Assembly (NCBI RefSeq): GCF_041081105.1
Contig: NZ_CP163528.1
Span: 682,001 to 746,000 of the forward strand
Direction: 5' to 3'
Length of the DNA stretch: 64,000 bases
Source: Promicromonospora sp. Populi
Lineage (GTDB): Bacteria; Actinomycetota; Actinomycetes; Actinomycetales; Cellulomonadaceae
Positions 9,275 to 21,069 of this stretch are shown in pieces (position 1 is the first letter of the stretch; every line of letters begins with the position of its first letter). A program made the position numbers and the translations under genes. The notes beneath the pieces are model-generated. The model was not told where the DNA came from. It saw only the letters and a list, made by a program, of their open reading frames with translations, and ran no database searches.

Positions 9275-10102
9275 GTGACCACCCTCGACGTCGTCCGAGT
9301 GGACGACCCCGCCGACGAGCGCCTCGCCGACTACAACAGCCTCACGGACGTCGTCCTGCGCTCCAAGCACGAGCCGGCCAAGGGCCTGTACATCGCCGAG
9401 AGCGCGACGGTGATCCGGCGGGCGCTCGCGGCGGGCCACCGGCCGCGGTCGTTCCTCATGGCCCCCAAGTGGCTCGACTCCATGGCCGACCTGATCACGG
9501 GGACCGGCGCGCCCGTCTACGTCGCCGAGGAGCCGCTGCTGAAGGAGATCACGGGCTTCCACCTGCACCGCGGCGCCCTGGCGGCGATGCACCGGCCGCC
9601 GCTGCCGGGTGTGCACGAGCTGCTCGCGGGGGCGCGTGGCGGCGCGGGTGCCCGTCGCGTGGCGGTGCTGGAGGACGTCGTCGACCACACGAACGTCGGT
9701 GCTGCCTTCCGCAGCGCCGCCGCGCTCGGCGTGGACGCGGTGTTCGTCTCGCCGCGCTGCTCGGACCCGCTCTACCGGCGCTCGGTGCGCGTGTCGATGG
9801 GCACGGTGTTCCAGGTGCCGTGGACGCGGATCGAGCCGTGGCCCGACGGCCTGCAGGCCCTGCGGGCGGAGGGCTTCACGGTCGCGGCCTTGGCCCTGTC
9901 CGACGACTCGATCACGCTCGACGACCTCGTGGCGAACCCGCCGGAGAAGCTCGCTCTCGTGCTCGGCACGGAGGGCGACGGCCTGAGCGGGCGCGCCATC
10001 GAGGCCGCCGACCTGGTGGTGCGCATCCCCATGGCCGGGGACGTCGATTCCCTCAACGTCGCGGCGGCCTCGGCGGTCGCCTTCTGGGCGACCCGCGTCT
10101 GA
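9275..10102 (+). CDS. TrmH/SpoU family RNA 2'-O-methyltransferase
   Basis: 275 aa with a GTG start. The N-terminal substrate-binding region (~20-105) contains GLYIAESATVIRRAL. The SPOUT catalytic domain has motif 1 DHTNVGAAFRSAAALG (Asn and Arg conserved), motif 2 LVLGTEGDGLS and motif 3 IPMAGDVDSLNVAAASAVA. These proteins form a trefoil knot and transfer methyl from SAM to rRNA or tRNA ribose. Which nucleotide this paralogue modifies cannot be told from sequence. It is divergent from the sigma-factor gene. Confidence 0.93.
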   Translation: MTTLDVVRVDDPADERLADYNSLTDVVLRSKHEPAKGLYIAESATVIRRALAAGHRPRSFLMAPKWLDSMADLITGTGAPVYVAEEPLLKEITGFHLHRGALAAMHRPPLPGVHELLAGARGGAGARRVAVLEDVVDHTNVGAAFRSAAALGVDAVFVSPRCSDPLYRRSVRVSMGTVFQVPWTRIEPWPDGLQALRAEGFTVAALALSDDSITLDDLVANPPEKLALVLGTEGDGLSGRAIEAADLVVRIPMAGDVDSLNVAAASAVAFWATRV

Positions 10103-10173
10103 GATGACAGGAGCGCGGCCGGCTGTGCCTGCCGAGCCAGCGCGGTGTCGACCACACGGCTAGGTTCGTCAGC

Positions 10174-10701
10174 GTGACGATCGCTCTTGAAGAGACTTCG
10201 GGCAAGGACATCGGTTCGGCGGAGCACACGCGCTCGATCCCGCAGAAGCGGTCGGCGGCGACGATGGTGTTCACCGATGCTGCGGGGCGGGTGTTGTTGT
10301 GCGAGCCGACGTACAAGCAGGTCTGGGAAGCCCCCGGCGGCGCCGTCGAGGGCAATGAGTCTCCCCGCGATGGCGCCGTGCGGGAGGTGCATGAGGAACT
10401 GGGCTTGGTGGTCGAGCCGGGTCGCCTGGTGGCGGTGGACTACGTCCCGCCGATCGAGGGTCGTACGGAGAGCCTGATCTTCGTGTACGACGGCGGGCAC
10501 ATGGCCGACGAGCAGGTCGCGGCGATCCATCTGGCCGACGAGGAGCTGCGGTCCTGGGCGTGGTGCACGGTCGATCAGGTGCACGAGCGGATGCGTCCCC
10601 TGGTCGCTCGCCGCATCGAGGCGGCGCTCGGCGCCATCCGCGATGGCGGCGTGGTGGAGCTGGAGAACGGCTACTCGGTCAGCACGAAGCTGACCGAGTA
10701 G
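10174..10701 (+). CDS. Nudix hydrolase
   Basis: 175 aa. A full Nudix box is present: Gly56, Glu62 and REVHEELGL at residues 70-78 fit G-x5-E-x7-R-E-U-x-E-E-x-G-U. The cytosolic enzyme would hydrolyse a nucleoside diphosphate linked to some moiety, metal-dependently; the substrate is unknown. The GTG start is preceded by TAGGTT ending 7 nt upstream and by no Shine-Dalgarno, so leaderless expression is likely. It converges on the APH-like gene and has no visible tie to the lanthipeptide genes beyond proximity. Confidence 0.9.
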   Translation: MTIALEETSGKDIGSAEHTRSIPQKRSAATMVFTDAAGRVLLCEPTYKQVWEAPGGAVEGNESPRDGAVREVHEELGLVVEPGRLVAVDYVPPIEGRTESLIFVYDGGHMADEQVAAIHLADEELRSWAWCTVDQVHERMRPLVARRIEAALGAIRDGGVVELENGYSVSTKLTE

Positions 10702-10794
10702 CCGTCTTGGTCAGGCGGCGTGCAGCCGTGCCCGTCTGGTAGCCGTGCGAAGGGTGCTCGGATCCGCCGGAGCGATAGTGGCAGGACGTCCCGG

Positions 10795-11733
10795 TCATCG
10801 CCTCGGCGAGCCCGTCCCAGCGCGACAGAGGCGCTCATGGGCCTCACTCTCGCAGAGTGAGGTGATGGGCTGCCCGACCGCGTGCTGGTACCTGGCGTCG
10901 TAGGCCCTGGTCCAGACGCCGGCCGCCCATGACCGTTCGAGCTCGTCGGCGCTGAGCTCCCGGCCGTGCGCGTGGCGATACGCATCGAGGAACCGGTCGG
11001 TCTCCTCCACAGTTGCCAGGTCGTCCACGTTGACGGTCGAGTACAGCGCGGCAGCGAAGCCGACGAGGACGGCTTCGCTGTCAGCGGTCATGCTGTCCCA
11101 GTCGTGGACGACCAGCAACGTGTCTCCGTTCCAGCGCAGGTTGCCGGCAAGCCAGTCGCAGTGGCCGATCACTGCTTCGGACTCGCCGGCTCGCAGCCGG
11201 TCGCGAGCGCGGCGCCCGGCCTCGTCGATCCACGCCGGACCGGCCACCCTGTTGAGGTTGAGGTCAGGGTTTTCCTCCGAACGTGGCCATAGTCCGTCCC
11301 CGGTGTGGTTCCACGCCGCCCACGACGGTGGCGGGTCGAGCGTGGACATCTCATCCGGCCGGGGGGCCAGCTCGATCAGCCGCGCGAACGCCTCAGCGAA
11401 GGCTCTGGCCGCGTCGCCGCTAGGGAGCGGTGTGCCACCGGGGACGTAGGTTTCCGCGGTCGCGATGTCCTGGCCGAAGGCGGCGGTGGCGAGCGGCTGA
11501 GGGCATGGATAGCCCGCCTGGAACAAGCGGTGCTGCACCTCGACGCAGGCCGCGATCCGCGGTGAGTCCGGACGCACCTTGAGCACGACCTCCCTGCCGT
11601 CAGCCAGCCGCAGCCCGATGACCGCGGACAGGTTTCCGGACCTGAAGATCTCGTCCACTGGCGGGCTGCCTAGATGTTCCCTGCACCACTGGGCGATGCG
11701 GGCAGGATCGACGGCGTCGGCGCGGGACGACAT
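10795..11733 (-). CDS. APH-fold phosphotransferase family protein
   Basis: 312 aa. Aminoglycoside/choline-kinase fold: an N-lobe with VVLKVRPDS (ATP-binding Lys), the catalytic loop IGHCDWLAGNLRW with the HxDxxxxN pattern, and the metal-binding VVHDWDSM. This family phosphorylates diverse small hydroxyl substrates, and antibiotic inactivation is only one role. It starts 30 nt after the methyltransferase stop on the same strand, so it may be the last gene of the lanthipeptide operon. Whether it modifies the peptide, confers self-protection or is unrelated is open. Confidence 0.82.
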   Translation of the reverse strand: MSSRADAVDPARIAQWCREHLGSPPVDEIFRSGNLSAVIGLRLADGREVVLKVRPDSPRIAACVEVQHRLFQAGYPCPQPLATAAFGQDIATAETYVPGGTPLPSGDAARAFAEAFARLIELAPRPDEMSTLDPPPSWAAWNHTGDGLWPRSEENPDLNLNRVAGPAWIDEAGRRARDRLRAGESEAVIGHCDWLAGNLRWNGDTLLVVHDWDSMTADSEAVLVGFAAALYSTVNVDDLATVEETDRFLDAYRHAHGRELSADELERSWAAGVWTRAYDARYQHAVGQPITSLCESEAHERLCRAGTGSPRR

Positions 11734-11763
11734 CTGGGCATCCTGCCATGCGTCGGGGCGCTC

Positions 11764-12966
11764 TTACCGAGTCGTCATGTCGGGCAGATTGAGCACCATC
11801 TGGGTGTTCTCCTTGACGATGGCGTGCCCGGCGCCGTCGCGTGCAGGGCCCCTGGTGATCGTCAGGGTCGGGAGCTGGTCGCGACGGGTGCCCCAGGTAT
11901 CGATGTGGTCGACCAGCCTGCTCGCGAGAGCGGTCGCGTGGTTGCCGTATCCGACGGCGCCGAGGCGTGCGTGCCCGGGCGCGACGTCGGTGCGGTCGAA
12001 CACCATGTACGCCAGGGAGTCACCGTCGACCAGCGCGGGCGTGCGCACGGGTATGGCGGGTCGTTGGACGCCGGCATCCATGGCGTGCTGGGTGATCTCG
12101 ATGCGGCAGACCCGATCATCCAGTGCGGTGGTGTGGAGCCACATGCCGTCGAAGGGTTCGGTGGTGGCGACCTGTGTGTCGGACCACACCACGACGGGAG
12201 CAATGTCGAAGGCGCCGTCGAGCGTGGCGGGCGCGACCGGCTGGTCCTGGTCGTGGTGGAGGCGGATCTGGTCGTCGAGCAGGCTGGTGGTGCGTTCGCC
12301 GTGCTGTCCGATGATGGGGACGAATCCGCACAGCTCGAGGCTGTCGGAGGCGAGGGTGTCGCCGTGGCGGTTCAGGGCGGCCGACTGGGTCTGTCCGCGC
12401 CAGCGCAGCGGCAGGACGACGCGGCCGCCGTCCTTGAGCTGGTCCCACCAGGCGGGCGGGATGTCCCATAGGCCGACGGCGGCGATGATGCGGTCGTAGG
12501 GGCCGTGCTCGGGGGCGCCGAGCAGGCCGTCGCGTTCGATGACGGTGACGTCGTTGTATCCGGTGCGGTTGAGAGCCTTGCGGGCATACAGCGCCACACC
12601 GGGGTCGATGTCGACGGTGGTGACGTGCCCTGCCGGGCCGACGAGCTCGGATAGGAGCGCGGCGTTGTATCCGGTGCCGGCGCCGATCTCCAGGATGTTG
12701 TCCCCGGGCTGGGCGTCGAGCTGGGTGAGCATCATCGCGACGACGGACGGCACCGACGCCAGGGACAGCGGCAGGGGGCCGTCAGGGTCGTCCTTGATGG
12801 AGATCGCGCGGTTGGAGTACGCGGTCTCCAGGTCGATGCCTGGCACGTGCTCGTGGCGGTGCACAGTGCGCAGGGCGGCCTCGATGCGGGCCGGGAGCGG
12901 GCGGGTCCGGGTGATGGAGTCGATGAGCTCGTTGCGTAGGTCGTCGGCTGCCGGTGCGGTGTTCAC
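11764..12966 (-). CDS. PIMT-like O-methyltransferase of FxLD lanthipeptide systems
   Basis: 400 aa. The first half resembles protein-L-isoaspartate O-methyltransferase: YSNRAISIKDD, SLASVPSVVAMML, then the SAM-binding motif I LEIGAGTGYN (92-101), VDIDP, and GLWDIPPAWWDQLKDGGRVVLPL. About 180 further C-terminal residues are absent from housekeeping PIMTs and typical of the lanthipeptide-associated group. Related enzymes methylate an Asp side chain of a ring-constrained RiPP, which then forms an aspartimide or isoaspartate. The GTG start overlaps the lanC stop by 4 nt, with AAGGAG 9 nt upstream. The precursor's Asp38-Gly39 is the obvious candidate site (inference). Confidence 0.88.
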   Translation of the reverse strand: MNTAPAADDLRNELIDSITRTRPLPARIEAALRTVHRHEHVPGIDLETAYSNRAISIKDDPDGPLPLSLASVPSVVAMMLTQLDAQPGDNILEIGAGTGYNAALLSELVGPAGHVTTVDIDPGVALYARKALNRTGYNDVTVIERDGLLGAPEHGPYDRIIAAVGLWDIPPAWWDQLKDGGRVVLPLRWRGQTQSAALNRHGDTLASDSLELCGFVPIIGQHGERTTSLLDDQIRLHHDQDQPVAPATLDGAFDIAPVVVWSDTQVATTEPFDGMWLHTTALDDRVCRIEITQHAMDAGVQRPAIPVRTPALVDGDSLAYMVFDRTDVAPGHARLGAVGYGNHATALASRLVDHIDTWGTRRDQLPTLTITRGPARDGAGHAIVKENTQMVLNLPDMTTR

Positions 12967-14138
12967 GGGGTGAGGCTCCTTGGTGTGTCGAGCAGGAGAC
13001 AGGTCTGCCATCCTGCGGGGTCGGAGATGGTCGTGGCGGGCGTCGTTTCCGTGGCAAGGATGACGCCGTCGTGCCCGGTCAGCAGACCACGAGCGTAGGT
13101 CGCGGGCTCGTCGTGGACCGTCCGGTCGAACTGTTCCTCGACGTCCGACAGGAGGGCAGGCAGGTCGCTGTCCGGCAGTGCGTCGGCTGCGGCGTGCCGG
13201 GCGACGAGGATGACGCCGGCCCACCCGTGGCAGACAGTGGCGTCGGTGATCTGGTCGGGCTGGGCGTGGTCGCTCAGGCAGCCGGCCAGGATCATCTCCG
13301 CGTGCCGTTGCAGGTCCTGTTCGTCGGTGGCGCGGGCGGCGAGCTGGAGGGCTCGGGCGATACCAGGTGTGCCGTAGCACCAGGACGGGCGGGTGCGTCG
13401 TGCCGCCGGTGGTGGTCCAGCGGTCCACTGGTCCGGGGTGACGTGTGCTGGCCACGCGTGTCCGGCGCCGTCGGGTATGGGTCGTGCCCACCCGGTGAGT
13501 AGCGCGCCCGTGTGCCGCAGGGCTTCGAGCTGCCCGGGTACGACGTGTCCGGCGTGGGCAGCCAGTGCGAGCAACGCGACCGGGCCGGCGACGCCGTGCG
13601 CGAGCCCGAAGTTGCCGTGCCCACCCAGCATGGCGAGGTCGGGGACGCCGCGCGGGCTGTCGGTGGTCCACCAGCCCGGAACTTCCGCGTCGCCGGTGGA
13701 CGTGGGCTCGGTCAGGAGACGGGTGAGGTAGGCGAGCCCGCGGTGCAGCAGATCAGGGCTGCTGCCTGTGTGCAGCAGCAGGGCCGTCAGGCCGGTGAGC
13801 CCGCTGATGAGGTCGTACTCCCGCATCCGTGGTGGGACACCATCGTCGAGGCGCCGCTCGGCGGCCGTCAGTCGCTGCTCGACGATGCGGGTCACAGCCT
13901 GGTCGAGGCGGTCGGCCTGGGCTCGGTAGGCGGGCCGGTCCGCGGTGTGCAGGACGTAGGCGGCGGCGGGCGCTCCGCGGTAGAGGCCGACCTGGTCAGG
14001 GTGCGAGGCGATCGGCTTGCGAGCCATCGCCCGCAGTGTGGCGTCGGCACGGTCCCACCGCCCTGTCCGCCGTGCAACGACGACCTCGCGCAAGAGGGTT
14101 CCGGCCAGCCCGTCACCGAGGGCGTGCAGCCCGGTCAC
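12963..14138 (-). CDS. lanC: LanC-like lanthionine cyclase
   Basis: 391 aa. The protein has the alpha-toroid LanC repeat pattern with GLAHGVAG (His181) and the zinc ligands Cys254 in SWCYGTPG and Cys303-His304 in VCHGWAG. LanC enzymes activate Cys thiols on zinc and add them to dehydroalanine or dehydrobutyrine to close lanthionine rings. The GTG start at 14138 overlaps the lanB stop (14135-14137). The same frame stays open to 14855, but that part lies antiphase within lanB and does not look like LanC. It acts on the precursor encoded upstream in the operon. Confidence 0.92.
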   Translation of the reverse strand: MTGLHALGDGLAGTLLREVVVARRTGRWDRADATLRAMARKPIASHPDQVGLYRGAPAAAYVLHTADRPAYRAQADRLDQAVTRIVEQRLTAAERRLDDGVPPRMREYDLISGLTGLTALLLHTGSSPDLLHRGLAYLTRLLTEPTSTGDAEVPGWWTTDSPRGVPDLAMLGGHGNFGLAHGVAGPVALLALAAHAGHVVPGQLEALRHTGALLTGWARPIPDGAGHAWPAHVTPDQWTAGPPPAARRTRPSWCYGTPGIARALQLAARATDEQDLQRHAEMILAGCLSDHAQPDQITDATVCHGWAGVILVARHAAADALPDSDLPALLSDVEEQFDRTVHDEPATYARGLLTGHDGVILATETTPATTISDPAGWQTCLLLDTPRSLTP

Positions 14139-17083
14139 TGCTCGGTCGTCCGGGCCAGGAGAGACCGGGCGGCCTGAGCGGCGGCGTGTAGGACGACGGT
14201 CTCGGAGTCTCGGTCGGGCCCGATGAACCGGTTGTGGTGCATGTGCAGCAGGGACTTCAGGATCCTGGGCGTGCGGGCATCGTCGACGTACAAGCGGTAC
14301 GCGCGGAGGGCAGCGGTGCGCGCGTCCTCGGGCAGGGTGGCCGTGGCGGCGCGGGCGGTCTGACGGGTCACGTCGTGCTCGCCAGGACCACCGGCTGACG
14401 TCCCAGCCAGGGCCTGCAGTCCTTCGGTATCGCCGAGGAATCCCTGGGCGATGTTGATCATCCCGAGCGCGCAGGTCACGCGCCGGTCCCGGTGCGGCGG
14501 GTGGGTCAGGGCGTGGCGGACGGCGTCGCTGTCGGCCGCGAACACGGCCTCGGCGACGTCCACGACCGGCCCGGTCCCGTACCGGCCGGTCTCGGGTCGA
14601 TACGCGTCGTAGACGAGCCGGGAGGCGAGCCCGGCACCACGCAGTTGCGCGAACCACGAGTCGATCGCGCGCCCGATCGTGGCCCGGTCTCCGGTGCCGG
14701 CCACCCGGATGCGTAGGTGGTCGTCCTCCTGGGCGTTGCGGTAGCGGACGAACCACATGGGCCGCCCGTCCAGGGCGGCGATGAGCGCGGGCAGGCGGTG
14801 CGCGATGACGTGGTTCAGCACGGCCGGGGTGGTGAAGACCTTCGCCTGCACCCACCGGCCGGTATGCGGGGTGGACGCGTCGGTGTTGCGCAGCACGGGA
14901 GCGTCCGTCAGGTCCGGATGCGGTTCGGGTGGTCGGGTCGTCACGAGCGGCAGGACCAGGCTATGGGCGTGCCCGATCCATGCGGTCGCCTCGTCCGAGG
15001 CAGCCTCAGTGAGGGTGACCTGTCGTTTGCGGCCGAGCTCAGCGTGCAGGAGGCGCACGTGTGCGGGTTCGGTCAGGTCCAGGCGCAGGGTCCGGTCCGC
15101 GTCGGACAGGTCCACCACCTGCGGGCACCGCCAGGTCCGCGCCCACGCGAGCAGTGCGTCGTGCCACGCCGGACCAAACCCGCCGGGAAGGTCGCTGGTC
15201 GTCAGGGTCCACCGGGCCGTAGACAGGATGGTGCGCCCGTAGCGGACCCGCGGCAGGTACGGCAGGCAGGAGGCGACGGGGCCCCAGTCGAACTCGGTCC
15301 ACCAGGTGGAAGCGGACCGCCCGACCATCGCGATGAACCGGGCGATCGGCGGCGCCTGCTTCTCCAGCGCCAGGGCGTTCAGCACGACAGGTTCGACGAC
15401 GCGGCGGCGCGACAGGGACACCAGCAGCAACCGCGATCCCGTGGACATCACGGCGAGGTCGTCCAGGTCGATGACCTCCGGACCGGGGCCGCGGTGCTCA
15501 CCGACGCTGATCACGTGCGGCAGGTACTGCGGGATGCGGGCGACGTTCTGCGCGTGCGGATACACCGGCGTGAACGACAGTTGCGCCGACAATGCGCCCT
15601 CGGTCAGGGTCGGCAGATCCCGGTAGGACGCGGCGAGGTCGCCGTCTTCCAGTAGCTGCGTGAACCGGCCGGTCAGGACACCGGCCGACCATGAGGGCCG
15701 AACAGTGAGCGTGAAGTCGCCGGCGTCGACGGCAGAAGTGTCAGGTGCGTGCACACGCACGGAGATCGCCGCGTGCGGCGCGGGCACCTGGTCGGGCAGG
15801 GGCGTGCAGGCAAGGCGTTCGACGTCGTCGTCGGTGAGCAGCACCTCGGTGTCGCCGATCGTCGCGGCCTGCGCCAGCCTGGCGAGGTGCTCGTCTCGAT
15901 CGAGGATCTTCATGGCGGGCTCCGGCCACGGCGAGGCCGGGAAGCCGTGCGGCAACCCGACCCCGGCGGCCAGGTCGACCGCATCCCGCAGGGGAACGAG
16001 GACCCCGGCGCCGTACCTGTCCCAGAACGTCGCCTGGTACGCCGCCCACGTCGGACGCCCCTGGGCGTGCCGGGATAGGCGCATCAGCGCGTGCGCGGCT
16101 CGTTCGGCCTCGCGCACGACCTTCTCGGACACCCTGATGGTCGCGTCGACTCGGGTGTTGATGCTCAGGCGGACCTTCCCGGAGTCGGCGACCTGGGTCA
16201 TCTTCTTGTCCAGGATGCTGCGCAGGTGCCGAGCGTCGTCTGGGCTCGCGGTGTTGTGCTCGTCGATGAGCCGCAGCACCTCGCCCAGGTCAGCGACGAT
16301 CCCGGCCGTCTCCACGTCCAGGTCGCCGACTACCGGACCGAGGGTACGCAGGAGATGGGAGAGCGGGTCCGTGACGGTCATAGCCGGGTGCAGGGACGTG
16401 ACCAGCACGCCTGCGGCCAGCGCGTCGGCGAACAGGCGCGCCATGCGGTCCGGTGTGCCGCCCGCCCGGGTCAGCGCGTCTACGACGTCCGGGTAAGCGG
16501 CGGGGGTCTTGGTCAGGTCGAGCAGACGGTCCAGCGGCCCGGTGACGGGCACGACCCCTGTCTGCCCGCCGGGGCGCGGCACGATCAGGACGTCACCGTG
16601 CCGGGTGGCGGTGTCGACAGCCTGGAGGATCAGGTGTGGCAGGACGTCCGGGCGGGACTCGAGCATTGACCGGACGGTCGCGGTCCAGGTCGTGTCGGCG
16701 GATGCGTAGGGGCGGTGGTCCGTACCCACCTCGACGCGGGTGGGGCCGAGGGTCGCAGTGGCGACCCCGGCGAACAGGCCGAACGGGATGGCGCGCCCCG
16801 TGGCCCGCAGCGCGTACCGAACCACGGAGTCGGTGACCCGCCGCACCGTCCTCGGCTCGGCCTGCCCGGTCAGGACCGCGTCGATGGTGGCAGCCAGCCT
16901 GGGCGCGGCGGCACGCACCTGATCGGCGAACGTATCCATCGTCCACGCCTGCCGGAGCCAGGTCAGGGCGGAGGCCTGGTTGTAGGGGTCGGGCCACCAG
17001 TGCCCGAGCGCGCCGTGCGGTGTGGTGGCCAGGCGTAGCACGACCGGTCCGCTGTGTCGCATGAGCCTGTTGGGTCGGGACAT
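14135..17083 (-). CDS. lanB: LanB lanthipeptide dehydratase, full-length class I
   Basis: 982 aa. The N-terminal glutamylation domain begins ~15 with VVLRLATTP and has the family signature GRAIPFGLFAGV at 96-107. The C-terminal elimination domain (~700-980, thiopeptide-type/SpaB_C) includes RPMWFVRYRNAQEDDHLRIR and LVYDAYRPETGRYG. Both domains sit in one polypeptide, as in NisB-type enzymes. LanB uses glutamyl-tRNA to glutamylate Ser/Thr of the precursor and then eliminates glutamate to give Dha/Dhb. The ATG at 17083 follows GAGGAAGG. A GC-rich hairpin separates it from the precursor gene. Confidence 0.93.
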   Translation of the reverse strand: MSRPNRLMRHSGPVVLRLATTPHGALGHWWPDPYNQASALTWLRQAWTMDTFADQVRAAAPRLAATIDAVLTGQAEPRTVRRVTDSVVRYALRATGRAIPFGLFAGVATATLGPTRVEVGTDHRPYASADTTWTATVRSMLESRPDVLPHLILQAVDTATRHGDVLIVPRPGGQTGVVPVTGPLDRLLDLTKTPAAYPDVVDALTRAGGTPDRMARLFADALAAGVLVTSLHPAMTVTDPLSHLLRTLGPVVGDLDVETAGIVADLGEVLRLIDEHNTASPDDARHLRSILDKKMTQVADSGKVRLSINTRVDATIRVSEKVVREAERAAHALMRLSRHAQGRPTWAAYQATFWDRYGAGVLVPLRDAVDLAAGVGLPHGFPASPWPEPAMKILDRDEHLARLAQAATIGDTEVLLTDDDVERLACTPLPDQVPAPHAAISVRVHAPDTSAVDAGDFTLTVRPSWSAGVLTGRFTQLLEDGDLAASYRDLPTLTEGALSAQLSFTPVYPHAQNVARIPQYLPHVISVGEHRGPGPEVIDLDDLAVMSTGSRLLLVSLSRRRVVEPVVLNALALEKQAPPIARFIAMVGRSASTWWTEFDWGPVASCLPYLPRVRYGRTILSTARWTLTTSDLPGGFGPAWHDALLAWARTWRCPQVVDLSDADRTLRLDLTEPAHVRLLHAELGRKRQVTLTEAASDEATAWIGHAHSLVLPLVTTRPPEPHPDLTDAPVLRNTDASTPHTGRWVQAKVFTTPAVLNHVIAHRLPALIAALDGRPMWFVRYRNAQEDDHLRIRVAGTGDRATIGRAIDSWFAQLRGAGLASRLVYDAYRPETGRYGTGPVVDVAEAVFAADSDAVRHALTHPPHRDRRVTCALGMINIAQGFLGDTEGLQALAGTSAGGPGEHDVTRQTARAATATLPEDARTAALRAYRLYVDDARTPRILKSLLHMHHNRFIGPDRDSETVVLHAAAQAARSLLARTTEQ

Positions 17084-17120
17084 CTGCCGGGGCCTTCCTC
17101 GTTGCGTGCGGTCTGGTGGT

Positions 17121-17155
17121 GCTGCGCGGGCAGACCCTGGGCCGGCCCGCGCAGC
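17121..17155 (-). terminator. Hairpin between lanthipeptide precursor and lanB (read-through attenuator)
   Basis: GCTGCGCGGGC (17121-17131) pairs perfectly with GCCCGCGCAGC (17145-17155). It starts 20 nt after the precursor stop and ends 38 nt before lanB. Partial termination here would give more precursor than enzyme transcript, a common arrangement in RiPP operons. No U-tract is present. Confidence 0.5.
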
Positions 17156-17174
17156 GATCAGTGGCGTGCCTGGG

Positions 17175-17330
17175 TCAGTCGCTCGTGCAGGACGACGCGC
17201 AGGTCGGATCGCAGCCGTCGCTCGTGTCGCAGGCGGTCGGTACGACGACGGGCGCGTCGACGATCTCGAACGACACGGACCAGTCGTCGAGCTCGGGGAT
17301 GGGTGCGGTGGTGATCGTGGTAGTGGACAA
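17175..17330 (-). CDS. lanA: FxLD-type lanthipeptide precursor peptide
   Basis: 51 aa, TTG start with GGAAGGAGA ending 7 nt upstream. The leader is Thr-rich at the front, then acidic, with VSFEIVDAPVVV (19-30). The core is CDTSDGCDPTCASSCTSD (34-51), with Cys at 34, 40, 44 and 48 and many Ser/Thr (32, 36, 37, 43, 46, 47, 49, 50). The T-x-D-G-C-x-x-T-C-x-S-x-C pattern matches the FxLD lanthipeptide core. The eponymous leader motif is degenerate, since WSVS (17-20) stands where FxLD is expected. It lies directly upstream of lanB, lanC and the methyltransferase. Confidence 0.88.
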   Translation of the reverse strand: MSTTTITTAPIPELDDWSVSFEIVDAPVVVPTACDTSDGCDPTCASSCTSD

Positions 17331-17378
17331 GGTGGTTCTCCTTCCGGTTAGCGCCCAGGGCCGTCCCAGGCGCCCTGT

Positions 17379-17396
17379 ACCGCCCTGGCGGGCGGT
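17379..17396 (-). terminator. Small hairpin between HAD gene and precursor
   Basis: ACCGCCC (17379-17385) pairs with GGGCGGT (17390-17396) around a 4-nt loop, between the HAD stop (17411) and the precursor start (17330). It could attenuate HAD transcription or protect the 5' end of the precursor mRNA; the sequence cannot distinguish these. Confidence 0.3.
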
Positions 17397-17410
17397 GCAG
17401 GTCTGTGGGG

Positions 17411-18223
17411 TCACCGGGTGTTCACGGCGACGGGCGTTGCGATCAGGGCGCGCAGCACGGGCACCAAGCCCTGTTCGTCGATGGAGCCGGTGACGTGGTC
17501 CGCAGCAGCGGTGACGACGTCGGAGGCGTGGCCCATGGCGACGGCGTATGCGGCCCACTCGAAGACGGGCAGATCGTTCAGCCCGTCGCCGACCCCGACG
17601 GTGAACCGGCGGTCGACGCCCAGGTCCTGCCGGACGAGCTCGAGCGCAGACGCCTTGGACACGCTGCCGGGGGTGACGTCGAGCCAGTCACCGGCGGCGG
17701 GAGTCGCGGTCACGCCGAGGCGGCGCAGGTCGCCGACCAGGTCCAAGATCGCGGGGGCACGCAGGATCATGCGTGGAGTGCGGGAGCGGGCGAGCTGGTC
17801 GGCCGTCGTGATGCGCTGGGCGCCGTTGACCTCGTCCGGTCCGAACAGGCGCGTCACCCAATAACCCCAACCGATCTCCTCGACGCCGATCTGCGCGCCG
17901 AGGAGACTCTTGCGGACCGTCGTGATCGCCGGGCCGACGGCGAACGTGTGCGACTTCGTGACCTCGTATCCGCCTGGCAGGGCCGGGTCGAGACGGGCGG
18001 TGACCGCACCGTTGGAACAGACGATGGTGCCGATGGACAGGCCGAGCGCTTGGGCGATCGGCACCGTGCCGACGAGTGACCGACCGGTGGAAAGCACGAC
18101 GTGGTGCCCCGCGGCGATGACGTCGCGTACCGCTGCGGCGGTCTCGCCGCACACCTCGTGGCTGCCGTTGGGCACGATCGTGCCGTCGATGTCCAGCGCC
18201 ACAAGGCGGGTCTCAGTGCTCAT
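17411..18223 (-). CDS. HAD-superfamily hydrolase, Cof type
   Basis: 270 aa. Motif I DIDGT is at residues 10-14 (nucleophile Asp10, acid Asp12), motif II is STGRS, and motifs III-IV include SVSKASAL and VGDGLNDLPVFEWA. A C2B-type cap lies between them. The usual role is phosphatase on a sugar phosphate or nucleotide. ATG 18223 follows GGGAGA. It is the first gene of the leftward lanthipeptide operon, 80 nt before the precursor, and is divergent from the cluster regulator. Membership in the biosynthetic pathway is inferred from position only. Confidence 0.87.
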   Translation of the reverse strand: MSTETRLVALDIDGTIVPNGSHEVCGETAAAVRDVIAAGHHVVLSTGRSLVGTVPIAQALGLSIGTIVCSNGAVTARLDPALPGGYEVTKSHTFAVGPAITTVRKSLLGAQIGVEEIGWGYWVTRLFGPDEVNGAQRITTADQLARSRTPRMILRAPAILDLVGDLRRLGVTATPAAGDWLDVTPGSVSKASALELVRQDLGVDRRFTVGVGDGLNDLPVFEWAAYAVAMGHASDVVTAAADHVTGSIDEQGLVPVLRALIATPVAVNTR

Positions 18224-18428
18224 GCCGTCTCCCTGGGTCGGAGCTTGCTGACGTCGTTCAGACTGCTGGCTGGCGCCGCCGCCCGACCCCGGGGTTCGTG
18301 CATCCTTTGCTTGCAGCAGATGCAATTTCCTGTCGCCGACGGGGCGGAACCGGGGCGTTTCGCGCACGGTTGCGGACCCGCGCCGCTACCGTTGGCACGG
18401 GCGCAGACCACGCCGGGAGGGGGCCACG

Positions 18429-19856
18429 GTGGCACGCAGCGCGAAGGCCGAACGTGAACGGCTCCGCGAGACGTGGTTCGCGGCCGGCACATCGATGGCC
18501 GAGGTCGCCGGGCTCATGGGCCAGCACTTCGGGGTGCGTCCCCGGACGGCCTGGCGGTACGCGGCTGGATGGGACCAATGGAAGCTGGTACAGCAGTACC
18601 GAACGGTCAACCCGGACGCGCGGATCGACGAGAGCCGCATCTCACGCTGGGAATCGTGGCCGTTCGGCGGCTCCCGCCCGAGCCTGGAGGCCCTGGCCGG
18701 GCTCGCCCTCACTCTCGGGCACGGCTGCACCCTGGCCGACCTGGTCGACGACGCCGACCGGCAGCACCTGTCCGCCGCAGAGACAGCGGTGATCACCGCC
18801 ACCAGCGCACCAGGTAGTGAAGGGATGATGGTTCTCGAGAGCCGGTCGACGACGACCGGCTCGGCACAGAAGGGAGAGGACGAGGTGCACCGCCGGGAGA
18901 TGCTGCGACTGCTGACCGTGGTCGGTGCCGCGGTCCTCCTACCCGCTGGACCTCAGCCCGTTGCTGCCGGTGCACCGATCGGTGAGTTCTCCCGGTTCAA
19001 CACCCACCTGTGGCAGGTATATGCGCTCGCGCCCGCCAAGGCCGACGTGCTGCCCCTGGTCCGCCGCCAGCTCGCGGTGCTGTCCGACGGGCTGAACCGT
19101 TCCCCCGGTCCAGCCGACCGGCAGCAGTTGTGCGCCCTGGCCGGGGACCTGTTCCAGCTCGCCGGCGAGATCTACTTCGACGCAGACGCCTACACCGACG
19201 CCGCGCACTGCTACCACCTAGCAGCCCAGGCCAGCCGCGAAGCAGGCGCCCACGACCAGTGGGCCTGCGCCCTGACCCGGCACGCCTACCTGTCGGTCTA
19301 CGAGAAGAAGTTCACCGACGCCCTGCCCGTCCTGGAGCTAGCGGCCGCTATCGCCACCCGCGGAGACAGCGAGCTGTCCACGCGTCACTGGGTCTCCGCA
19401 GTCCAGGGCGAGGTCCACGCCGGCCTCGGTGACCTGGACGCCTGCCGCCGCGCCCTTGACCACGCCCAGGAAGTCGCCGGACTCACCGGCACGATCCACA
19501 ACGGCGGCTGGCTGCGGTTCGACGGCTCCCGGCTCCCTGAGGAACGTGGTACCTGCTACGTGACTCTGGGCAGCCCAGACCTGGCCGAGGCTGCACTGAC
19601 CGAAGCGCTCCAGCACGCTACCTCCACTCGGCGCCGCAGCAGCGTCCTGGCCGACCTCGCCATCGTCGGTGCACAACGCCGCGACCTCGACCAGGTCCTG
19701 GTCCACGCCGACGCTGCCCTGGCCAACTCCCAGGGCAGCGGCTCGGCGATGATCGCTCGAAAGCTCCTGACTCTGCGCCCCCACCTCGCACCGCTCATGT
19801 CGGATCCTCGCGCCCGCGAGCTCGGCGACCGACTTACCGCTCTGACCGCAGCATGA
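18429..19856 (+). CDS. Helix-turn-helix regulator with TPR-like sensor region, lanthipeptide-cluster associated
   Basis: 475 aa with a GTG start. Residues ~1-110 form a divergent helix-turn-helix domain (MAEVAGLMGQHFGVRPRTAW, ISRWES, SLEALAGLALTL). After a linker, EVHRREMLRLLTVVGAAVLLP (~150-170) precedes helical repeats with TPR-like spacing (DAYTDAAHCYHLAAQASREAG, FTDALPVLELAAAIA, PDLAEAALTEALQHA). This architecture is common in Streptomyces regulators beside RiPP and other natural-product genes. It is divergent from the HAD-precursor-lanB operon across a 205-bp spacer and probably controls it. Confidence 0.82.
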   Translation: MARSAKAERERLRETWFAAGTSMAEVAGLMGQHFGVRPRTAWRYAAGWDQWKLVQQYRTVNPDARIDESRISRWESWPFGGSRPSLEALAGLALTLGHGCTLADLVDDADRQHLSAAETAVITATSAPGSEGMMVLESRSTTTGSAQKGEDEVHRREMLRLLTVVGAAVLLPAGPQPVAAGAPIGEFSRFNTHLWQVYALAPAKADVLPLVRRQLAVLSDGLNRSPGPADRQQLCALAGDLFQLAGEIYFDADAYTDAAHCYHLAAQASREAGAHDQWACALTRHAYLSVYEKKFTDALPVLELAAAIATRGDSELSTRHWVSAVQGEVHAGLGDLDACRRALDHAQEVAGLTGTIHNGGWLRFDGSRLPEERGTCYVTLGSPDLAEAALTEALQHATSTRRRSSVLADLAIVGAQRRDLDQVLVHADAALANSQGSGSAMIARKLLTLRPHLAPLMSDPRARELGDRLTALTAA

Positions 19857-20233
19857 CCACGAAGGGAACCCTCTTGGACCACGAGAACGGCCGCATCTTC
19901 CGCGAAGCCTGGATTGCTGGCGTCACCAAGCACTACCCCGGCGAACCCAAGTTCGGCTACATCACGCCCTGGGACGACACCCCGGAGTGGGAACGATCCG
20001 CCGCATCGGCCGTCCACGACCAGGTCCGAGCCTTCATCGACACCACCGACGGCGCTGCCGGGCGCCTCACTCGCGAGCAGAAGGGCCGGTTCGTCGCCCT
20101 GTGCTGGATCGGCCAGATCTACAACCACTTCCCCGACCCCAAGCCCTCCTACGTCGCCGACTGGAACGACATGCCCGCCTGGCAGCAGGAAACCGACGCG
20201 GACATCTTCGAGACGATCGAACGCACGCCGTAG
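19853..20233 (+). CDS. Small protein with two RyR-like repeats
   Basis: 126 aa, ATG overlapping the regulator stop by 4 nt. Two copies of one motif are visible: KHYPGEPKFGYITPWDDTPEW at ~27-47, where the repeat core is H-[YF]-P-x2-PK-x2-Y-[IV]-x2-W-[DN]-D-x-P-x-W, and NHFPDPKPSYVADWNDMPAW (~92-111). Each copy is followed by an acidic helix. This resembles ryanodine-receptor (RyR) domain halves, a fold found in some bacterial ligand-binding proteins. Translational coupling suggests it works with the regulator, for example as a co-sensor. Function is unknown. Confidence 0.75.
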   Translation: MTTKGTLLDHENGRIFREAWIAGVTKHYPGEPKFGYITPWDDTPEWERSAASAVHDQVRAFIDTTDGAAGRLTREQKGRFVALCWIGQIYNHFPDPKPSYVADWNDMPAWQQETDADIFETIERTP

Positions 20234-20250
20234 GACCGCCAGCGGCCGGC

Positions 20251-21069
20251 TCAGCGCAGCGGGGACCGGCGGGCGCTGACGCGCTCGCGCTGGAGCTCGT
20301 CCTGCCGGCCCTGCCAGCCCTTGAACTTCTCCTGCGCCTCCATCTCGGCCGCGCTGGGCGCCAGACCGACCACCAGGAGCAGCAGGATCGTGCTGAGGGT
20401 GACACCGATGATCAGCGGGCCCAGGAGCGCTCCCACGGACACCCCGACGTCCGGCGTGGCGACGGCTCCGCGTACCACCTCCGCCTGCATGGCCGACATG
20501 CCCGTGTAGTGCATGCCGGACACCGCGATGCCCATGATGATCGCGGCGCCCGCGCCGGCGGCGATGTTGTGCACCCTCGCGGAGAGCCAGAGCCCGGCGG
20601 TCGCGGCGACGACCCCGACGGCCACCGACAGGACGACGGTGGCGGGCGCGTACGTGATCTCGACGCCCACGTGTACGGCGCGCATGCCGAGGTAGTGCAT
20701 GGCCGAGATGCCGAGGCCGGTGACGATGCCACCCGCGAGCAGCGCGAAGGGGCCGACCCCGGCGGCGCGGACGATGAAGAGGCCGAGGCCCACGACGGCG
20801 ATGGCGAGCACGCCGCTGGCGATCGTCAGGCCGACGTCGAACCGGGTCTCGGCGCCACGGACGTGGAAGCCGAGCATGGCGACGAAGTGCATGACCCAGA
20901 TGCCGGTGCCGCCGATGGAGATCGCGCCGAGAGCCAGCCAACCGGTGCTGGCGCTGCCGCGGGCGACGCGGGCACGGGCGGTACAGGTCAGGCCGACGGC
21001 GCACCCGGCGCACGAGAGCAGGAACGAGAGCACGGGCGTGACCCAGCCCAGCGCAAAGTGGTCGATCAT
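20251..21069 (-). CDS. MHYT domain integral membrane sensor
   Basis: 272 aa. About seven transmembrane helices contain the MHYT-family motifs: WVMHFVAM (~60), SAMHYLGMRAV (~125) and SGMHYTGMSAM (~185). The conserved Met/His residues are proposed to bind copper and sense oxygen, CO or NO. Other MHYT proteins carry GGDEF/EAL output domains; this one ends in a short charged cytosolic tail (EAQEKFKGWQGRQDELQRER). It is therefore a stand-alone sensor or has an unlinked partner. The partner is not apparent here. Confidence 0.9.
   Translation of the reverse strand: MIDHFALGWVTPVLSFLLSCAGCAVGLTCTARARVARGSASTGWLALGAISIGGTGIWVMHFVAMLGFHVRGAETRFDVGLTIASGVLAIAVVGLGLFIVRAAGVGPFALLAGGIVTGLGISAMHYLGMRAVHVGVEITYAPATVVLSVAVGVVAATAGLWLSARVHNIAAGAGAAIIMGIAVSGMHYTGMSAMQAEVVRGAVATPDVGVSVGALLGPLIIGVTLSTILLLLVVGLAPSAAEMEAQEKFKGWQGRQDELQRERVSARRSPLR

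Follow-up and report, generated by a model that had tools for sequence, protein, structure and literature searches.

An olv-type class I lanthipeptide cluster in Promicromonospora sp. Populi, accompanied by an NsdA-family regulator and a HAD phosphatase gene

The window analysed here, a stretch of 64,000 nucleotides from Promicromonospora sp. Populi (contig NZ_CP163528.1, positions 682,001 to 746,000), carries a class I lanthipeptide cluster of the olv type, or "lanthimiditide" cluster, which is an already known kind. We consider it quite probable that this cluster sits on a roughly 10-kb island, that its peptide follows an olv-like path, and that an NsdA-type regulator controls a promoter region shared with a HAD-family phosphatase gene, which would form a regulatory frame together with the regulator and its small partner protein. 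The frame with its phosphatase is the sole part that may be new; the finding is otherwise real and had been correctly named in a reading made earlier from the same DNA (here referred to as the original prediction).

Five genes are transcribed leftward in the order HAD-IIB hydrolase, precursor, LanB, LanC and PIMT-like methyltransferase (Table 1), and LanB/LanC as well as LanC/methyltransferase overlap by 4 nucleotides on the minus strand. The regulator and the small partner run in the opposite direction and overlap each other by 4 nucleotides. The original prediction had described the precursor and the three enzymes as one leftward unit with such overlaps, and all of them lie where it placed them. 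It had also named the divergent regulator and small partner as flanking genes; both are present, but the HAD gene between precursor and regulator had been overlooked, so the regulator is not adjacent to the precursor. All reading frames are open across the cluster genes, and the ratio of non-synonymous to synonymous substitution (dN/dS) against Myceligenerans pegani is about 0.29-0.32 for LanB, LanC and the methyltransferase, as under purifying selection.

Table 1. Features of the lanthipeptide locus, in positions of the window
Feature	Position	Strand	Evidence and remarks
fxlA lanthipeptide precursor, 51 amino acids	17178..17330	-	TTG start; stop 17175-17177; TIGR04363
LanB, full-length class I lanthipeptide dehydratase, 982 amino acids	14135..17083	-	Lant_dehydr_N + Lant_dehydr_C
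LanC lanthionine cyclase, 391 amino acids, GTG start	12963..14138	-	LANC_like, motifs, NisC alignment
PIMT-like aspartate methyltransferase, 400 amino acids, GTG start	11764..12966	-	TIGR04364, AlphaFold2, 1dl5; PCMT + C-terminal domain
HAD-IIB (Cof-type) phosphatase, 270 amino acids	17411..18223	-	PF08282, motifs; first gene of leftward unit
NsdA-family TPR-like regulator, 475 amino acids, divergent from HAD gene	18429..19856	+	NF053720
Small partner protein, 126 amino acids	19853..20233	+	no Pfam/NCBIfam match; 1546 homologues
Regulator/HAD shared intergenic region, likely divergent promoter	18224..18428		conservation against L099; motif scan
Variable island bearing the cluster, plus NUDIX gene and APH-fold gene	10103..20241		comparison with six genus members

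The precursor, MSTTTITTAPIPELDDWSVSFEIVDAPVVVPTACDTSDGCDPTCASSCTSD (last codon 17180-17178), begins at a TTG (17330-17328) with AAGGAG seven bases upstream. It had been called FxLD-type, with a comparison against the family models proposed as a check, and TIGR04363 indeed matches it at 34.6 bits over a cut-off of 30 (33.3 bits in the whole-genome search). The letters of the name are another matter, and the leader has WSVS at Trp17-Ser20 in place of a literal F-x-L-D box. The nearest relatives have WRVA, WQLT, WEVE, WELD and WELT. Among the 120 profile matches listed of 427, the W box is found in 84 and the F box in 12, while 23 are left unparsed by the box rule, and these shares are biased towards W and give no unbiased frequency, the query having consisted of nine W-box and one F-box sequences. 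The 12 unparsed precursors that were printed all read DPFxLx, DPFxVx or NPFxLx, that is, F boxes. Since the W box is common among the listed matches and many of them (uncounted) are named FxLD family at their source, membership of the family is set in practice by the profile and not by literal letters.

The core has four cysteines (Cys34, Cys40, Cys44 and Cys48), and residues 36-40 read TSDGC, which places Asp38-Gly39 in a TxDGC site; the numbering of the original prediction is correct for the TTG start. TxDGC is the motif given for methyltransferase-associated lanthipeptides in the accessible text of two published accounts (PMC10787088, PMC13001092), and DGC is missing from one of the 120 listed matches. 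The window precursor is 60% identical to that of Myceligenerans pegani. It matches no Pfam family, a search with the single sequence returned two proteins, one of them its own, and the structure search gave no convincing solved structure of a relative. The core ACDTSDGCDPTCASSCTS of another protein-search match (P0011) is the same as the window core over 18 residues, while the leaders differ.

The N-terminal core cysteine (Cys34 in the window, 17229-17231) is kept in all 84 W-box precursors. In the window Thr32, two residues before it, is the only Ser or Thr between leader box and Cys34, and the Myceligenerans pegani precursor (L041:5634-5792) has none in that interval. This cysteine may stay free, or its ring may close in the reverse direction.

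LanB is full-length, as predicted. It matches Lant_dehydr_N with 552 bits and Lant_dehydr_C with 124 bits (Pfam), which means that the glutamylation and elimination domains are both there; it has the elimination motifs HLRIR at 789 and SLLHMHHNR at 944 and aligns with the lantibiotic dehydratase 5ehk. LanC matches LANC_like with 103.6 bits (Pfam), aligns with NisC, and contains HGNFGLAHG at 174, RPSWCYG at 250 and VCHGWAG at 302, the last two of which presumably hold the zinc ligands.

The methyltransferase scores 367.7 bits against TIGR04364 (cut-off 320) and has a PCMT domain (Pfam). Its AlphaFold2 model has a mean predicted local distance difference test score (pLDDT) of 89.5, and the two-domain isoaspartate methyltransferase 1DL5 (TmPIMT) aligns with it over residues 10-396, including the C-terminal domain, in line with the C-terminal extension that had been predicted. 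Within its 400 residues there is no Lant_dehydr_C match (Pfam), and it is thus not a fusion with a glutamyl lyase domain of the coi type. Of 221 genomes in the window's family, 8 contain TIGR04364 matches above cut-off, and 5 of 396 genomes sampled from the order have a relative of this enzyme at E of 1e-50 or lower.

The closest published systems are olv and coi, as their accessible descriptions present them. The olv cluster of Streptomyces olivaceus (OlvA, OlvB, OlvC, OlvSA) likewise combines class I enzymes with a stand-alone PIMT-like methyltransferase for a conserved Asp, and is protease-free (PMC13001092, PMC9486935). The window differs from it in a precursor of the W-box subgroup and in the HAD gene, a comparison made with the OlvA sequence itself not identified. 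The coi cluster of Streptomyces coelicolor has the same enzyme set in outline and no protease; however, CoiSA carries a second, fused glutamyl lyase domain, for which the window methyltransferase has no Pfam counterpart. It also encodes CoiH, to which no function is assigned and whose sequence was not part of the comparison. Among named clusters, Myceligenerans pegani has the closest (L041), with LanB 75%, LanC 72% and methyltransferase 74% identical and the same gene order with a HAD gene upstream. The HAD protein there is only 34% identical, and no regulator or small partner of the window kind was found in its 21 kb stretch. Clusters on Streptomyces plasmids (L056-L061) share the order fxlA-lanB-lanC-fxlM and a divergent regulator (L056 matches the NsdA model with 66.4 bits, below cut-off, and the others were recognised by our own profile, which was partly trained on them). 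Unlike the window, they have a DUF6415 protein and an ATP-binding protein in 6/6 and a DUF6302 protein in 3/6, and no HAD gene was found in them.

The chemistry can be proposed by analogy with OlvA, on which OlvSA acts after cyclisation, giving an Asp methyl ester, then an aspartimide, then isoaspartate, according to the accessible part of the report (PMC13001092). The predicted methyl-Asp, aspartimide or isoaspartate in the window peptide agrees with this course. LanB would bind the leader and use glutamyl-tRNA to glutamylate, and then eliminate, Ser and Thr of the core. LanC would add the cysteines, with Thr36-Cys40 as the likely methyllanthionine enclosing Ser37-Asp38-Gly39. The methyltransferase would esterify Asp38 of the cyclised peptide, the ester would collapse to an aspartimide, and this could hydrolyse to isoaspartate. 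Leader removal and export would fall to genes outside the cluster, the divergent regulator and small partner probably control the shared intergenic region, and the HAD phosphatase would be part of the regulatory frame and not of the ring chemistry. The peptide would be an additional member of a widespread family, for which the literature found establishes neither the mature products nor the cleavage of the leader nor a biological role.

The regulator matches NF053720 (NsdA family) with 133.4 bits over a cut-off of 75. Across the genus, an NsdA-type regulator was counted in 8 of the 11 stretches that hold both a HAD gene and a methyltransferase (one of them weak, L110), by a profile partly built from the same loci. 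The intergenic region has 91% mean column identity to that of another locus of the genus (L099) and holds TTGCTTGCAGCAGATGCAA at 18307, whose arms TTGCAT/ATGCAA pair perfectly in L099. This repeat gives no evidence of a shared operator; it was found only in the window and L099, plus a match with 4 mismatches in L063, some 5 kb from the regulator. For the small partner, 1546 homologues were counted (120 listed), yet it is sparse, being present in 2/396 genomes of the order and 4/396 of the phylum, own genome included. It was likewise dismissed as a cluster-specific gene, which qualifies the original prediction: scans or annotation show neither LanB nor methyltransferase around its copies in L063, L064, L142 and L153-L155, the first three of which have it paired with the regulator. 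In L153-L155 the regulator profile found no match, and the pairing is therefore not universal.

One line of evidence for a frame comes from its exchange between peptide cores. Window positions 17445-20242 are 88% identical in DNA to L099 (G195:C5, same genus), and within the frame the proteins are 92% (regulator), 89% (small partner) and 77% (HAD) identical. The cores differ strongly, with 34% identity for LanB, 37% for LanC and 49% for the methyltransferase (residues 15-221); in L099 no precursor was found, and its lanthipeptide core was judged from these three enzymes alone. Besides these two different FxLD cores with the same frame, lasso peptide cores may have related frames. Moreover, two loci of the own genome (L117, L120) have a divergent NsdA-like regulator with a HAD gene and neither a methyltransferase nor a recognisable peptide cluster, and in L142 regulator, small partner and HAD gene stand together, again with no recognisable peptide cluster. 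Because the HAD gene stands beside differing peptide cores, and beside regulators that have no core, we infer that it fits the control frame better than the ring chemistry.

The HAD protein matches PF08282 (Hydrolase_3) with 119.8 bits and keeps the catalytic motifs DIDGT, STGR, KASAL and GDGLND, whose patterns are incompletely matched in L041 and in parts of L113 and L115. We surveyed 13 genomes of the genus with 130 HAD places and 16 methyltransferase places of at least 200 bits, the latter in lanthipeptide and lasso clusters; the counts rest on profile-search matches and six-frame scans, and our own gene caller missed or misplaced the HAD gene in several loci. A HAD gene lies within 7 kb of 11 of the 16 places, where 0.52 would be expected under uniform spacing, a limit picked after the distances were known and applied to a set in which several members are syntenic copies. 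None of 12 housekeeping-type PCMT places has one within 7 kb; these controls were our own choice, with PCMT-part matches of about 88-99 bits and one each from 12 of the 13 genomes, and a 70-bit match in G187 was assigned to the weaker set below and not to them. LanB occurs in only six places in three genomes of the genus, and a HAD gene is near the methyltransferase in 5/6. Three further HAD-associated loci (L102-L104) are lasso peptide clusters with an asparagine-synthase-type cyclase, a transglutaminase-type protease and two GNAT enzymes, assigned by Pfam for L103 and by homology to L103 proteins for L102 and L104. In L101, L105 and L106, one or two GNAT enzymes are all that could be recognised in addition to the methyltransferase and the HAD gene. 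From the other genera of the family we fetched 9 of the 11 listed methyltransferase places of at least 200 bits (G164:C75 and G020:C2 were left out), and 6/9 have a HAD gene (L113-L115, L143, L145, L146), a figure that comes with no background estimate; none was seen in L147-L149, and L143 is apparently the Myceligenerans pegani locus L041 again.

Several points weigh against this picture, in addition to the late choice of the 7 kb limit, the syntenic copies and the missing F-x-L-D letters. The peptide and its modification are predicted from the genes alone. LanB residues 97-102 read RAIPFG, with Ile for the Thr of RxTPFG; among 20 relatives this Thr is present in 8, and the pattern is unmatched in 11. 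We take the residue to be important in NisB. Five of the 16 strong methyltransferase places have no HAD gene within 7 kb: it lies 12 kb away in G195:C35, 33 kb in G195:C5:355198 and 44 kb in G193:C10, and G195:C38 and G184:C101 have none on the contig. Near the 17 weaker methyltransferase matches (33-124 bits), a HAD gene is found in 3 within 7 kb and 4 within 10 kb. As a general feature of FxLD clusters the HAD gene had to be given up, with 1/22 among loci L041-L062 (L041 only), which come from named genomes and plasmids, mostly of other lineages, and several of which have short flanks. HAD stretches without methyltransferase have an NsdA-like regulator in 5/20, and the neighbours of other HAD loci are mixed (CYTH + CN-hydrolase; GTP cyclohydrolase + glycosyltransferase; P450 + LanC-like). 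In the comparison with L099, the DNA of regulator, small gene and intergenic region is about 92% identical and that within the HAD gene about 79%, with a step near 18200, and synonymous divergence (dS) is 0.21-0.23 on the regulator side versus 0.55 for the HAD gene. Because of this drop in identity and this difference in dS, HAD gene and regulator may have separate histories and may not always move together.

We tentatively propose that in the Promicromonosporaceae, as judged from Myceligenerans, the NsdA-type regulator, small partner and HAD-IIB gene could act as a plug-in control frame that stays in place when the adjacent core is swapped. Aspartimide-type clusters would then have in the phosphatase a working component so far unreported, which might, for instance, clear a phosphorylated signal that the regulator senses. 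In the literature found, the HAD gene is not counted among the parts of such clusters, and no link of HAD genes to lanthipeptide or lasso clusters came up, the supplements of mining papers being outside the search. If regulator and phosphatase switch on any adjacent core, they would offer a handle to awaken silent aspartimide-type clusters.

It is rather unlikely that the regulator, small partner and HAD gene only travel along on a gene-rich variable island, with no bearing on the lanthipeptide, and that fxlA-B-C-M alone is one functional unit. The regulator and its partner do occur away from FxLD genes, the HAD gene was not found in Streptomyces FxLD loci, and the B, C and S enzymes were sufficient to modify OlvA and CoiA1, as far as the available text of the publications goes (PMC13001092, PMC9486935). 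However, the 11/16 association stands against an expected 0.52, and the HAD gene ends 80 nucleotides before the precursor start on the same strand and in the same order. Divergent NsdA-family regulators also stand above cut-off at the FxLD clusters L042-L044 (L056, at 66.4 bits, is below 75).

A role of the phosphatase in maturation, where it would dephosphorylate the peptide or a cofactor intermediate of the pathway, is improbable. Its place as first gene of the unit, its complete motifs in the window, and its occurrence beside lanthipeptide and lasso clusters that have only the methyltransferase in common speak for such a role, but we know of no phosphorylated intermediate in class I lanthipeptide or aspartimide chemistry. 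Similar HAD genes also stand by regulators in loci free of methyltransferase (L117, L120), and the accessible portions of the published accounts mention none for olv or coi, though coi has CoiH. It is very improbable that the cluster is silent or decaying with no product, as the RAIPFG of LanB and the absence of a reported olv or coi product from a native producer in the accessible text (PMC9486935) could suggest, given the open frames, the other motifs intact, a dN/dS of about 0.3, and the same RAIPFG in Myceligenerans pegani.

The cluster that we thus read as olv-type with a control frame lies on an island whose edges were set by comparison with the six genus members, of 12 others, that carry the right-hand neighbour gene. 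On the right, all six are homologous to the window again from 20242-20251 onward, and on the left homology ends at 10098-10102 in the 5/6 with a left match; in these five two-sided relatives nothing matches the island sequence between the edges. Edge to edge, one relative has a gap of about 10 bp, next to which the neighbour gene occurs a second time; a further one has about 290 bp, and the remaining three have 1.8-6.8 kb. Since the gap length varies among relatives, the site, which two convergent genes enclose, is a variable one.

The original prediction stated that no exporter or leader protease is encoded nearby. This holds for the nine island genes, in which Pfam shows no transporter or protease domain (precursor and small partner match no family); the remainder of the 64 kb was scanned in part, covering the MHYT gene and nine further open reading frames, three of those with no match. 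In the plasmid FxLD clusters L056-L061 no exporter or protease is annotated within the stretches, whose gene table is incomplete, and in L062 a peptidoglycan endopeptidase gene lies about 4 kb beyond LanB. Since olv and coi are also reported without a protease, and with native products unreported, in the text available (PMC9486935), its absence is not peculiar to the window locus.

A few minor observations concern other loci. In the own genome, two fragments weakly matching the FxLD methyltransferase model (L112, 1718976-1720157) lie 151 bp from a HAD gene and may be what is left of another such cluster. A small protein of about 100-120 amino acids recurs beside the HAD gene (L096:12320-12685, L110, L113, L114, L120, L122 and L142), and its L096 copy has no Pfam match; a second one of 108 amino acids (L114:15605-15931), also with no Pfam match, recurs in other loci. 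Similar short peptides are encoded in the lasso loci of three genomes (L102:4748-5209 on the plus strand, L103 within 11573-13096 and L104:11818-12009 on the minus strand), where they adjoin the lasso genes, the two GNAT genes and the methyltransferase gene. The end of the L104 peptide, LTEGSKKKAGTEDKRYAYR, resembles a lysine-rich lasso core (Thr at -2, Gly1, Glu9), which we take to be like the triculamin-type lasso peptides.

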